The notes below the pieces were generated by a model. It did no database searches and had not been told where the DNA came from. It worked only from the letters and a program-made list of their open reading frames with translations. From Armatimonadota bacterium (GTDB lineage: Bacteria > Armatimonadota > JAAZEB01), in contig JAAZEM010000069.1 of the NCBI GenBank assembly GCA_012512265.1, positions 1-64,000 of the forward strand: a stretch of DNA of 64,000 bases, written 5' to 3'. Positions 12,135-61,870 of the stretch are shown here, piece after piece (the stretch's first letter is position 1; every line of letters starts with the position of its first letter). The position numbers and the translations under genes are program-made.

Positions 12135-12255
12135 GCGGCCAGACGCGATGGAAAGAGTCGGCTTCACCGGCGCGCGCCTTTCCCATGAGAGTGCGCGCCC
12201 TGCTAGGAGAAGAGGAAACAGCCGGCCCTTGCCGGCTGTGCGCATCTGTGGGCTC

Positions 12256-12403
12256 TGGCCCGAAGTATTCACCAGAATACTTAGAAGACTCTTGCCTGGT
12301 AGCACGTCGTTGTCGCCACAAGCGCCGGGGGCAGGGCCCACGAACCCGCGCCACGCCTGGCGGAGAGACTTCTTTTCACTATTCTGGTGAACAATGCGGG
12401 CTA
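12256..12403 (+). mobile_element. MITE-like element, copy 1 (internally deleted, about 144 bp)
   Basis: GCCCGAAGTATTCACCAGAATACTT at left end and ACTATTCTGGTGAACAATGCGGGC at right end, inverted relative to each other; same interior as copies at 15711-15880 and 61690-61858 but missing an internal segment of about 24 bp. Confidence 0.85.
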
Positions 12404-12466
12404 GCCGTGCCTGGTGCCGGGCGAGGCGGCGGGGCTTTCAGGAGACGCTGGAAAGGATGCCGGAGA

Positions 12467-15517: not shown

Positions 15518-15710
15518 GTCCAGCGTGGGGTCGCTCCCCTTCCTTGGGACCGGCGCGGGGCCGGGGACTAGGGCGCCCGGGGCGAGGCGCGCGATCCGGC
15601 GAACCGCATCCGATCGCGCTTCCGACGACCGGCCTTCGCCCTGGCGATCCTGTCCATTCTTACTCAGCCGGCGTGCCGTCCGAGCAGTGGCCAGGCTGCT
15701 TCGGCTCGCC

Positions 15711-15880
15711 TAGCCCGCATTATTCATCAGAATAATGAAAAGAAGTCTCTCTACCAGGCGTGGCGCGGGTTCGTGGGCACTGCCCTCGAAAACACTCTGC
15801 CACCGGGCACTTGTGGCAGCAACGGCGCGCCACCAGGTAAAAGTCTTTTCTTGAAGTATTCTGGTGAATACTTCGGGCTA
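15711..15880 (-). mobile_element. MITE-like element, copy 2 (most complete; opposite orientation to copies 1 and 3)
   Basis: TAGCCCGCATTATTCATCAGAATAATGAAAAGAAGTC...TTGAAGTATTCTGGTGAATACTTCGGGCTA: TA-flanked, imperfect long terminal inverted repeats, each with an internal hairpin. Confidence 0.9.
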
Positions 15881-18007
15881 GAGGGCCACGGCGGTGTCTC
15901 GGTCGCAGGGACGTTACAGGGTTACTTCCTCACACCGCAGGGCCAGTTTGGCCCGCGCACCTTCACCCTCGTCGAGCGCCCGGGGAAGGCCCGGGAGTCC
16001 GTGCATCCGGTGCCTTCCGCGTACTACCTCTCTATCGTTGCCAAGTCGACAACCGCTCCCATCGCCAGAGCCGAGGTACTCACGCTCCGGAATCGCCACC
16101 CGCTTCTCTCCGTGCGGATGGATGCCCCCGCCGCGGAGGTGCGCTTGCCCCGGGGGGAAGCCGCGTGGCTGGGAGTGCGCCCAGAAGAGGGCCTGGCTTT
16201 CCGGGTGGTCCTGCATCTCGTCGACGGCCAGAGAGTGGATGCTCGCATCCAGCCCGACGGCATCCGCTTGCTGCGCGTGCCTCCCTTGCGCGTGAACTGG
16301 CTGGACTTCGTGCGCATCGAGGAGGCGCGGCGCATGCTGCGCGCGGTCGGCGACGACGTCTTGCCCGGTTTCCGGGCCGATGACGTGCCGTTCGCGCTCC
16401 TGGGCGAAGAAGGGCAATGCGTGCTGGTCGACCATCCCCGCCCTCCGCGCGGGTTCCGGCGCTATCGGGGCCCCTGCCCTGTGGCAGGGCGCGTCTATGT
16501 CGGCCAGATGCGACGAGAGAATCCCACCCCTCACTCATCGGAGATCGAGGGGATCTACACTGCCCTGCTCCCCTACGACCCTTCGTGGTTTGCCTTGCCG
16601 GTGGCGCCCGGCGTAAAGCGGAATGAGCGTGAAGCCACCAGGTGCTTTGAGGCCATCCTCCACGAGGCCTGCCACGTGGTCTGGATGCGGCAGGTGAAGG
16701 ATGACTCATCACCCGAGAAGCTGGAAATCTCCCCCCGTGCGGCTGCTATCGAGGAAGCCGAGCTCGATGTCACCTGTGAGGCAATCGAGCATTTGGATGG
16801 CGACCGCGAAAAGCTGCTGGCGCTCGTGCGCGATTACGTGGCGCTCCGCGAATGCCGCCGCGGCATCGAGCTACCCTTGCCAACCACCGAACTCCGCGAA
16901 GCCATCGAGGGGCTGGCTTACTTCGCGGCCTGGCGCGCTGCCGAGGTGGCACGCGGGAGGTACGATCCCATCCTGTTGCGCCAGGCGGATCCCTTCCTGA
17001 AGGAGCTGGAAGTCGAAGATCCCATCATCCGCCTGGAGCCGGAGGTGCGCGGCATCGGCCTGCCCGAGCTGCATCTCTCCAACTACCTCTTCTATCAGGG
17101 TGCCTGCCAGGCACGACTGCTCCATGCCCTCGATCCCCAGGCGCTGGCGGCGGCGTGGCGGAATGGCGCTCTCCTGTGGCGAGCGCTCAGCCGCGTCTCG
17201 GGCTATGAGATGCTGCCTGCCGGCGAGCGGGAACGGCTGAAACAGGAAGCGATGGCGCGCTGGGACTGCGCCGATCAGGAGGCGACGCTGCGTGAGATCC
17301 AGCGGCAGGGCGAAGCAGAGCAATGGCGGGCCGCGCTGTCGGCCCGGCAAGGCGAGGGTGTGGTCCTGCGTGTCCGGGTACAGTTTCTGTCAGGCAGCTC
17401 TGGTGGTTCAAGGACCATCTCATCGTGGCGCTTCACACCGGTCTACGCCTTTTCTTCGGATGGCTTCGCGATAGCGTGCAACCAGCCTTGCCTCGTGCGC
17501 TCGCTCCTAGCTGGGGAGGAAGCCTGGATGGAGCTTCAAACGGTGTTGCCCAGAGAGGGCTTCCTGACTCTCCGCAGAGACGACCGGTTCACCCGGCTTC
17601 AGGCGGGAGAGGTGGTGATTCAAGCAGATCAGGTGCGCGTCATGGGGCCGCCCTCTTCGCCTGTGATCCAGATAGACTGCCTTCGCGAGAGCAATAGGAC
17701 GCGCGTGATCCATGAGAGGGAGAGCGCGAAGGGGTCAACAAGGTCTGCCGTGATGCCGTTCCCCCCGGAGTCATGCGCCGCCTCCGGGAAAGCGCCGCTC
17801 GCGTGGCCGGAGGTGACCGCCACTATCAGCGGGCTCTTCCTGAACGTGGCCACTGGGCAGCAGCAGATCCGGGCGTTGGACCTCCTGGTCGAAAGGCGGA
17901 TGATGAGAGGGCCGGCAGCTACCGGGTCGCGAGGGCGCGCGAGACGGCGGCTTCCAGCGCCTGGATCTCGGGATCCGGCTCGCGCGCCGCGGTTCCCTCG
18001 GGGGTAA
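15773..18007 (+). CDS. HEXXH-containing uncharacterised protein (putative zincin-like metallopeptidase) whose ORF runs in frame through MITE copy 2
   Basis: AILHEACHVVWMRQVKDD; ORF N-terminus MGTALENTLPPGTCGSNGAPPGKSLFLKYSGEYFGLE is encoded by the element; the frame is open back to 15572 without a conventional start codon. May be a pseudogene. Confidence 0.55.
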   Translation: MGTALENTLPPGTCGSNGAPPGKSLFLKYSGEYFGLEGHGGVSVAGTLQGYFLTPQGQFGPRTFTLVERPGKARESVHPVPSAYYLSIVAKSTTAPIARAEVLTLRNRHPLLSVRMDAPAAEVRLPRGEAAWLGVRPEEGLAFRVVLHLVDGQRVDARIQPDGIRLLRVPPLRVNWLDFVRIEEARRMLRAVGDDVLPGFRADDVPFALLGEEGQCVLVDHPRPPRGFRRYRGPCPVAGRVYVGQMRRENPTPHSSEIEGIYTALLPYDPSWFALPVAPGVKRNEREATRCFEAILHEACHVVWMRQVKDDSSPEKLEISPRAAAIEEAELDVTCEAIEHLDGDREKLLALVRDYVALRECRRGIELPLPTTELREAIEGLAYFAAWRAAEVARGRYDPILLRQADPFLKELEVEDPIIRLEPEVRGIGLPELHLSNYLFYQGACQARLLHALDPQALAAAWRNGALLWRALSRVSGYEMLPAGERERLKQEAMARWDCADQEATLREIQRQGEAEQWRAALSARQGEGVVLRVRVQFLSGSSGGSRTISSWRFTPVYAFSSDGFAIACNQPCLVRSLLAGEEAWMELQTVLPREGFLTLRRDDRFTRLQAGEVVIQADQVRVMGPPSSPVIQIDCLRESNRTRVIHERESAKGSTRSAVMPFPPESCAASGKAPLAWPEVTATISGLFLNVATGQQQIRALDLLVERRMMRGPAATGSRGRARRRLPAPGSRDPARAPRFPRG

Positions 18008-51132: not shown

Positions 51133-51194
51133 CTGGGAGGGGGAGCCCCGAAGGAGCTTTGCCGGAAAGCAGCGCGGAGCTTCGAGCTCCGCGC
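51133..51194 (+). repeat. Dispersed hairpin element, copy C
   Basis: CTGGGAGGGGGAGCCCCGAAGGAGCTTTGCCGGAAAGCAGCGCGGAGCTTCGAGCTCCGCGC; stem CGCGGAGCT/AGCTCCGCG. Confidence 0.8.
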
Positions 51195-60612: not shown

Positions 60613-60738
60613 CAGACCCTCCCCTGCATCACCCCTTGCCTTTGATCGGTTCTCGCTCCAGGCCGCGGTTTCCCCTTGGGTGCGTGTTCGAGCAGGAACC
60701 GCGAAGCGCGAGGCGAACACCGCGGAGAGGTACACGCG

Positions 60739-61692
60739 ATGCGAATCACAGGAACTTTTCTCGACGAGATCAGCCACGATATTCCCCACCAAAACTGGGG
60801 CCCCGAGGAGTGGGACCTCGACTTCCAGGCGATGCGAGCCATCGGGATCGACACCGTGATCCTGATCCGCTGCGGCTACCGCCGGTGGATGACCTACCCC
60901 TCACAGGTGCTCCAGGAGCGCGAGGGCTGCTACCCGCCGCCACTCGATCTGGTGGATCTCTTCCTCACTCTGGCCGAGAAGTACGGCATGGAGTTCTGGT
61001 TTGGCACCTACGATTCCGGGCGCTACTGGCATCAGGGCCAGTTCCAGGAGGAGGTCGATATCAACCTGCGCGTGCTTGACGAGGTGTGGGCACGCTACGG
61101 CCACCGCCCGGCGTTCAAGGGGTGGTATCTCAGCCAGGAGGTGAGCCGGCGCACCGGCGGGATCATCGACATCTACGCCCGGATGGGCCGGCACTGCAAG
61201 GAGATCTCGGGAAACCTGCCCACGCTCATCTCGCCGTGGATCCAGGGCGTGAAGGCCGTGAGCGCCTTCACCGGGCAGACGCGGCAAGCGCAGGGGATCA
61301 CCCTGGAAGAGCACGAGCGCGAGTGGAACGAGATCATGGCTGGAATCGCCGGCGCCGTGGATATCGTGGCGTTCCAGGACGGGCACGTGGAGTTCGACGA
61401 GCTCGCCAGCTTCCTCTCGCTGAACAAAGCATTGGCCGAGCGCCACGGCCTCCGCTGCTGGACGAACAGCGAGTCGTTCGACCGCGACATGCCAATCAAG
61501 TTCCCACCGATTAAGTGGGAGAAGCTGCTGCTGAAGCTGAACGCGGCGGAACAGGCCGGGATGGAGAAGGCGATCACCTTTGAGTTCTCGCACTTTATGA
61601 GCCCCAACTCCATCTATCGCGCGGCGCACCATCTCTACCGGCGCTACTGCGAGCAGTTCGGCCTGGAGCCGTGGCAGCCGCCAGCGCAGTAA
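60739..61692 (+). CDS. DUF4434-like protein (TIM-barrel, putative glycoside-hydrolase-like)
   Basis: MRITGTFLDEISHDIPHQNWGPEEWDLDFQAMRAIGIDTVILIRCGYRRWMTYPS...FKGWYLSQEVSRRTGGIIDIYARMGRHCKEISGNLPTLISPWIQG. Confidence 0.85.
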   Translation: MRITGTFLDEISHDIPHQNWGPEEWDLDFQAMRAIGIDTVILIRCGYRRWMTYPSQVLQEREGCYPPPLDLVDLFLTLAEKYGMEFWFGTYDSGRYWHQGQFQEEVDINLRVLDEVWARYGHRPAFKGWYLSQEVSRRTGGIIDIYARMGRHCKEISGNLPTLISPWIQGVKAVSAFTGQTRQAQGITLEEHEREWNEIMAGIAGAVDIVAFQDGHVEFDELASFLSLNKALAERHGLRCWTNSESFDRDMPIKFPPIKWEKLLLKLNAAEQAGMEKAITFEFSHFMSPNSIYRAAHHLYRRYCEQFGLEPWQPPAQ

Positions 61693-61858
61693 CCCGAAGT
61701 ATTCACCAGAATACTTCGAGAAGTCTCTTGTCTGGTGGCACGCCGTTGCCGCCACAAGCGCCCGGAAGCAGAGTGTTTTCGAGGGCAGTGCCCACAAATC
61801 CGCGCCACGCCTGGCAGAGAGACTTCTTTTCATTATTTCTGATGAATAATGCGGGGTA
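61690..61858 (+). mobile_element. MITE-like element, copy 3, inserted at a stop codon/operon junction
   Basis: TAACCCGAAGTATTCACCAGAATACTTCGAGAAGTCTCTTG...GAGAGACTTCTTTTCATTATTTCTGATGAATAATGCGGGGTA; same ends and interior as copies 1 and 2. Confidence 0.9.
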
Positions 61859-61870
61859 AGGAGCGTGAAG

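Follow-up and report, generated by a model that had tools for sequence, protein, structure and literature searches.

A dispersed 164-bp MITE family with 4-bp NTAN target duplications and an excess of insertions at stop codons in an Armatimonadota genome

The stretch of 64,000 nucleotides analysed here (the window) contains three copies of a short repeat. The repeat forms a new family within a familiar class of elements, the MITEs, and has an unexpected property: an excess of insertions at the stop codons of genes. The element is very probably a non-autonomous MITE of 164 bp, with long imperfect inverted repeats whose outer ~25 bases are palindromic, free of genes and presumably spread in trans by a DDE transposase that cuts NTAN targets with a 4-bp stagger. 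Its description adds a MITE family with 4-bp duplications from an uncultured lineage and corrects an assignment, based on TA, that would direct the search to the wrong transposase. Furthermore, the excess at stop codons shows how a transposon with a TA-centred target and a duplication of 4 bp can insert into the terminal codon of a gene while leaving the protein unchanged, a mode of entry that is open to testing and may be widespread in genomes rich in GC.

Copies in the window and in the source genome

The first indication of the family came from the initial annotation of the window, which described three copies of a dispersed, MITE-like repeat. This reading was borne out, as the repeats are short, have inverted-repeat ends and a target duplication, and encode no transposase. 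All three copies are in place and align from end to end (Table 1), but their limits had to be corrected to CCCG...CGGG, without the target duplication; likewise, the end motif, given as GCCCG, holds from CCCG onward, whereas its leading G belongs to the target duplication, as the last of the four bases. The end motif has five matches in the window, against 0.02 expected, and no Rfam family was matched across it. Copies 1 and 2 are intergenic, and the gene that follows copy 3, at about position 61865, encodes an oxidoreductase.

Table 1. Positions in the window of the three MITE copies, their target duplications and the ends of copy 2
Feature	Position	Strand	Remarks
Copy 1, left target duplication	12255..12258		CTGG, one base off CTAG
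MITE copy 1	12259..12400	+	142 bp, ~22 bp lost internally; CCCGAAGTATTC...AATGCGGG
Copy 1, right target duplication	12401..12404		CTAG
Copy 2, left target duplication	15710..15713		CTAG
MITE copy 2	15714..15877	-	164 bp; orientation opposite to copies 1 and 3
Copy 2, end B	15714..15737	-	+ strand reads CCCGCATTATTC-ATCA-GAATAATG; self-palindromic
Copy 2, end A	15853..15877	-	- strand reads CCCGAAGTATTC-ACCA-GAATACTTC; self-palindromic
Copy 2, right target duplication	15878..15881		CTAG
Copy 3, left target duplication	61689..61692		GTAA; its last three bases, TAA, form the stop of the DUF4434 gene 60676-61692
MITE copy 3	61693..61855	+	163 bp
Copy 3, right target duplication	61856..61859		GTAA; rebuilds AAGGAG (ribosome-binding-like) before the next gene

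The 164-bp consensus runs from CCCGAAGTATTCACCAGAATACTTC (end A) to CATTATTCTGATGAATAATGCGGG (end B). As had been noticed from copy 2, each end bears a hairpin and the two form imperfect inverted repeats: both are palindromic around a 4-base loop (ACCA at A, ATCA at B), and the consensus ends align over about 75 positions. The element is too short for a gene, and indels between copies break its reading frames. In keeping with this, the peptide KYSGEYFG, which the initial annotation had taken as encoded by the element, is not a genuine product but a chance frame broken by such indels, although the accompanying warning that it would pollute automated annotation was justified. Indeed, copy 2 lengthens the first downstream ORF (15773-18007), whose start falls inside the MITE and whose first 35 or so residues (MGTALENTL...KYSGEYFG) derive from the element; the true start of this ORF probably lies further in.

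The source genome is apparently a draft MAG (5.03 Mb in 219 contigs, 97% complete, 6% contamination), and the prediction that many copies would be found in it held: copy 2 gave 46 BLAST matches genome-wide, and a covariance model of the family recovered 34 distinct full or near-full places, spread over many contigs. Family fragments lie at the ends of contigs C112 and C149, and one degraded fragment was found in C29. With a 164-bp consensus and about 34 copies, the family is short (<600 bp) and dispersed, as MITEs are. Identity to the consensus averages 92.6% (range 86.7-96.9%), being 95.7-98.8% in the terminal palindromes and about 89-91% in the interior. Since the copies are only ~87% identical to one another, and even the closest pair reaches just 97.6%, the spread of the family was not very recent.

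In C209 (41542-41821) one copy lies inside another, and the removal of the inner copy together with one 4-bp site, at junctions read by eye, restores exactly the length of the outer one. A second pair, in C140 (73005-73337), is arranged in tandem, head to tail, with one CTAA in common. Finally, four solo palindromes of 28 bp, each made up of a single palindrome bounded by CCCG and CGGG, were found at C205:87760, C64:10298, C40:5277 and C1:68190-68217. All four lie between CTAG-like sites, those in C64 and C40 having CTAG itself on both sides. Two of them are A/B chimeras, the other two A/A or B/B; all would be derivable from the full element via internal deletion. They may be the shortest deletion products of the MITE, or may alternatively represent a 28-bp element moving independently.

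Target duplication and insertion at stop codons

A duplication of TA had been proposed for the family, and TA is indeed nearly invariant at the flanks; the length of 2 bp, however, was not upheld, as TA is the core of a 4-bp NTAN. An exact 4-bp duplication is present at 19 of 31 paired copies, compared with 6.05 when flanks are shuffled; in 20,000 shuffles the count never rose to 19 (p<5e-5). The bases on either side of TA match between the left and right flanks at 23/31 and 28/31 sites, where 13.1 and 18.8 would be expected by chance, and this co-variation implies that the duplication is of 4 bp. The duplicated sequences comprise CTAG (the commonest), CTAA, TTAG, ATAG, ATAA, GTAA, GTAG and CTAT, a diversity showing that the flanks are not fixed element sequence. 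On the other side of the balance, no sister-strain locus with an empty site came to light. All 19 exact duplications fit NTAN; 13 of them also fit YTAR and six do not.

The relation of these sites to genes was examined by removing in silico each copy together with one target site, and then comparing the site with the stops of the flanking ORFs. For 15 of 30 copies the site proved to be exactly the stop codon, TAG or TAA, of a coding-like ORF next to the element, against 4.0 expected if NTAN sites of these kinds were drawn at random. Because selection removes insertions within genes, a second null was drawn from non-intragenic NTAN sites in ~1.67 Mb of the source genome, against which the excess persisted: 14 of 22 copies coincided with a stop (5.6 expected, p=1.3e-4), and among non-intragenic copies with exact duplications the figure was 12 of 16 (3.9 expected, p=1.4e-5). 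Gene calls in this test relied on simple ORFs and GC3, with a Pfam check on the hits only. In this check, Pfam domains ran near the stop in DUF6785/6784, AMP-binding_C, TrkA_C, FtsX, DUF4434, ClpB_D2-small and DUF3810 proteins, and further genes of the set carry Aconitase_C, SKI and GFO_IDH_MocA; a Pfam match was absent from some of the ORFs, such as those at loci L008 and L029 and the minus-strand ORF at L015. Judged from these predictions, the genes are mostly real.

Duplication of the target at a stop leaves the stop codon intact. As both TAG and TAA conform to NTAN, and the stop is regenerated by the duplication, the upstream protein would remain unharmed, and insertions at these positions, being harmless, could accumulate there; the element would then become the first part of the 3' untranslated region of that gene. 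The survival of harmless insertions is thus suggested as the simplest account of the stop excess. A different possibility, which we regard as unlikely, is that insertion is actively targeted, with the transposase or a host factor recognising the 3' ends of genes, or ribosomes or RNA polymerase in the act of terminating. The excess that persists over non-intragenic NTAN sites speaks for it; nevertheless, intergenic insertions may be counter-selected too, for instance by parting promoters from genes, and such selection would yield the same excess without targeting. Quite unlikely, in our judgement, is a programmed safe haven in which the transposition machinery actively picks stop codons, with CTAG, a palindrome, overlapping a TAG on each strand, so that a self-healing insertion always restores the stop. 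A narrow and incomplete search of the literature on insertion sequences or MITEs that target stop codons returned nothing relevant.

The element might also be retained for a function of its own, for example by placing in the 3' UTR a hairpin that would stabilise or terminate the mRNA. As single-stranded RNA, a copy from the window folds 6.4 SD better than shuffled sequences (z = -6.4), about half of the copies lie directly after a stop codon, and the terminal stems are nearly invariant. Against this, the covariation term of the alignment is -0.02, with changes on both sides in only 2 of 43 pairs, neither an intrinsic terminator nor a sigma-70 promoter pattern was seen in the two copies tested, and the gene is faced by either end of the element (10 by end A, 5 by end B). 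Selection on an RNA structure was rejected for lack of covariation support in the alignment, and for the same reason the fold is taken to follow incidentally from the inverted repeats. Retention for function is, on balance, improbable, and survival of harmless insertions is the reading kept here.

The mobilising enzyme

In the mechanism that we favour, a DDE transposase acting in trans would make cuts in the target that are staggered by 4 bp around a central TA (NTAN, with CTAG preferred). From the NTAN/YTAR pattern, we infer an enzyme of IS5 type, by analogy with known families; such an IS5-like mobiliser would either be missing from the assembly or have disappeared from the lineage. The initial annotation had instead pointed to IS630/Tc1-mariner, in which the duplication is the 2-bp TA, and had proposed a comparison of the ends with those of IS630-family transposases in the same genome. 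The near-invariance of TA on both flanks fits that assignment, and TA ends are common among bacterial MITEs according to PMC2229807. However, the bases outside and inside TA match across the flanks well beyond chance, which makes the duplication one of 4 bp, and the source genome has no match to PF13358 (DDE_3, IS630), although the same search finds DDE_3 in control genomes, so that no IS630 transposase was found for the comparison. The assignment had to be abandoned, and an IS630-type origin is very improbable.

Other transposase families were considered as partners. The source genome gave no match to PF13546 (DDE_5, IS701), which speaks against an IS701 origin, or to PF13586 (DDE_Tnp_1_2). 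PF01609 (DDE_Tnp_1) gave a single hit, in an ISAs1-like element (DDE_Tnp_1_assoc plus DDE_Tnp_1), which was discarded as the partner given that the contig ends CAGGGCGAGAGCATTT are unlike those of the MITE. The contig in question (C10) is in itself a complete insertion sequence of 1,630 bp, with ends CAGGGCGAGAGCATTTAA, and probably was collapsed from several copies. The families searched, with IS1182-type elements covered only indirectly, through PF01609, and some IS5 subgroups only by models other than their own, yielded no transposase whose ends match, and neither did ~1.7 Mb of contig sequence; inspection of the short contigs (<3.5 kb) disclosed no insertion sequence with CCCG ends, and a Pfam scan of the proteins of nine short contigs and of the ISAs1-like contig gave no transposase beyond the ISAs1-like one. 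Because the genome is a fragmented MAG, a partner insertion sequence that was collapsed or left unbinned could be missing from the assembly.

Hardly credible is a REPIN-like origin, with two inverted REP palindromes and a spacer moved as a single strand by a RAYT/Y1 transposase: a pair of inverted, self-palindromic ends enclosing a conserved spacer, as in REPINs, the solo palindromes and one Y1_Tnp gene in the source genome (PF01797 search) recall such a system, but IS200/REP chemistry produces no target duplication, and the 4-bp duplication, together with the separate, unrelated palindromes (GCGCGGAGCTGGAAGCTCCGCGC) that flank the Y1 gene, rules this origin out. The candidate mobiliser that we retain is the IS5-like enzyme.

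The Y1 (RAYT-like) gene lies at C105:10279-10620 (positions 1501-1842 of locus L044) and has copies of the GCGCGGAGCTGGAAGCTCCGCGC palindrome on both sides, the gene and the palindromes being a candidate for a separate REP/RAYT system. One palindrome related to GCGCGGAGCTGGAAGCTCCGCGC is present in the window, at 51172-51194.

Comparable systems and occurrence elsewhere

The closest known systems resemble the family only in part. IS5 targets the 4-bp YTAR (PMC10359306), and MITEs assigned to IS5 elements are listed in PMC3852290. The insertion sequences of the IS5 family and their MITEs share with the present family a TA-centred 4-bp duplication, 13 of the 19 exact ones here being YTAR; in contrast, six of the 19 are not, the ends are self-palindromic and no IS5-type transposase with these ends was found. 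An IS1182-derived MITE of Methanosarcina acetivorans has 160 bp, 26-bp inverted repeats, a 4-bp direct repeat and ISMac2 as its partner (PMC3852290). It is like our element in size and in duplication length; the two come from different domains of life, and a partner insertion sequence is known only for the archaeal one. Correia/NEMIS, RUP and ERIC, presented as TA-type MITEs in PMC2229807 and PMC10969869, are similarly short, dispersed, foldable as RNA and mostly gene-free, with terminal inverted repeats, but they are TA-ended where our family has a 4-bp duplication, and insertion at stop codons is not described in the portions of the two reviews that were consulted.

As for its distribution, a search of 292 genomes of the phylum (E <= 0.001) gave matches in the source genome and in only two others, both incomplete drafts. 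One of these (G001), from another genus of the same family, contains a diverged full-length match (E=1.3e-6) and, in a smaller search, a second, marginal one (E=0.002); the diverged matches in this genome are located at C433:5524-5680 and C418:3621-3771. The other (G261), from a different family of the phylum, carries a single strong copy (E=5.7e-44, at C828:1173-1357), which may reflect horizontal transfer or mis-binning. Searches of plasmids, phages and viral contigs gave no match to the family. Among 85,488 named genomes the exact end motif gave at least 103 hits (loci L045-L147), which were discarded as relatives, nearly all of them being the (D)ILVNNAG coding motif of short-chain dehydrogenases, encoded by the codons TATTCTGGTGAATAATGCGGGC. 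Any DNA-motif search that uses the MITE end with its loop is thus prone to false hits through the ILVNNAG codons.
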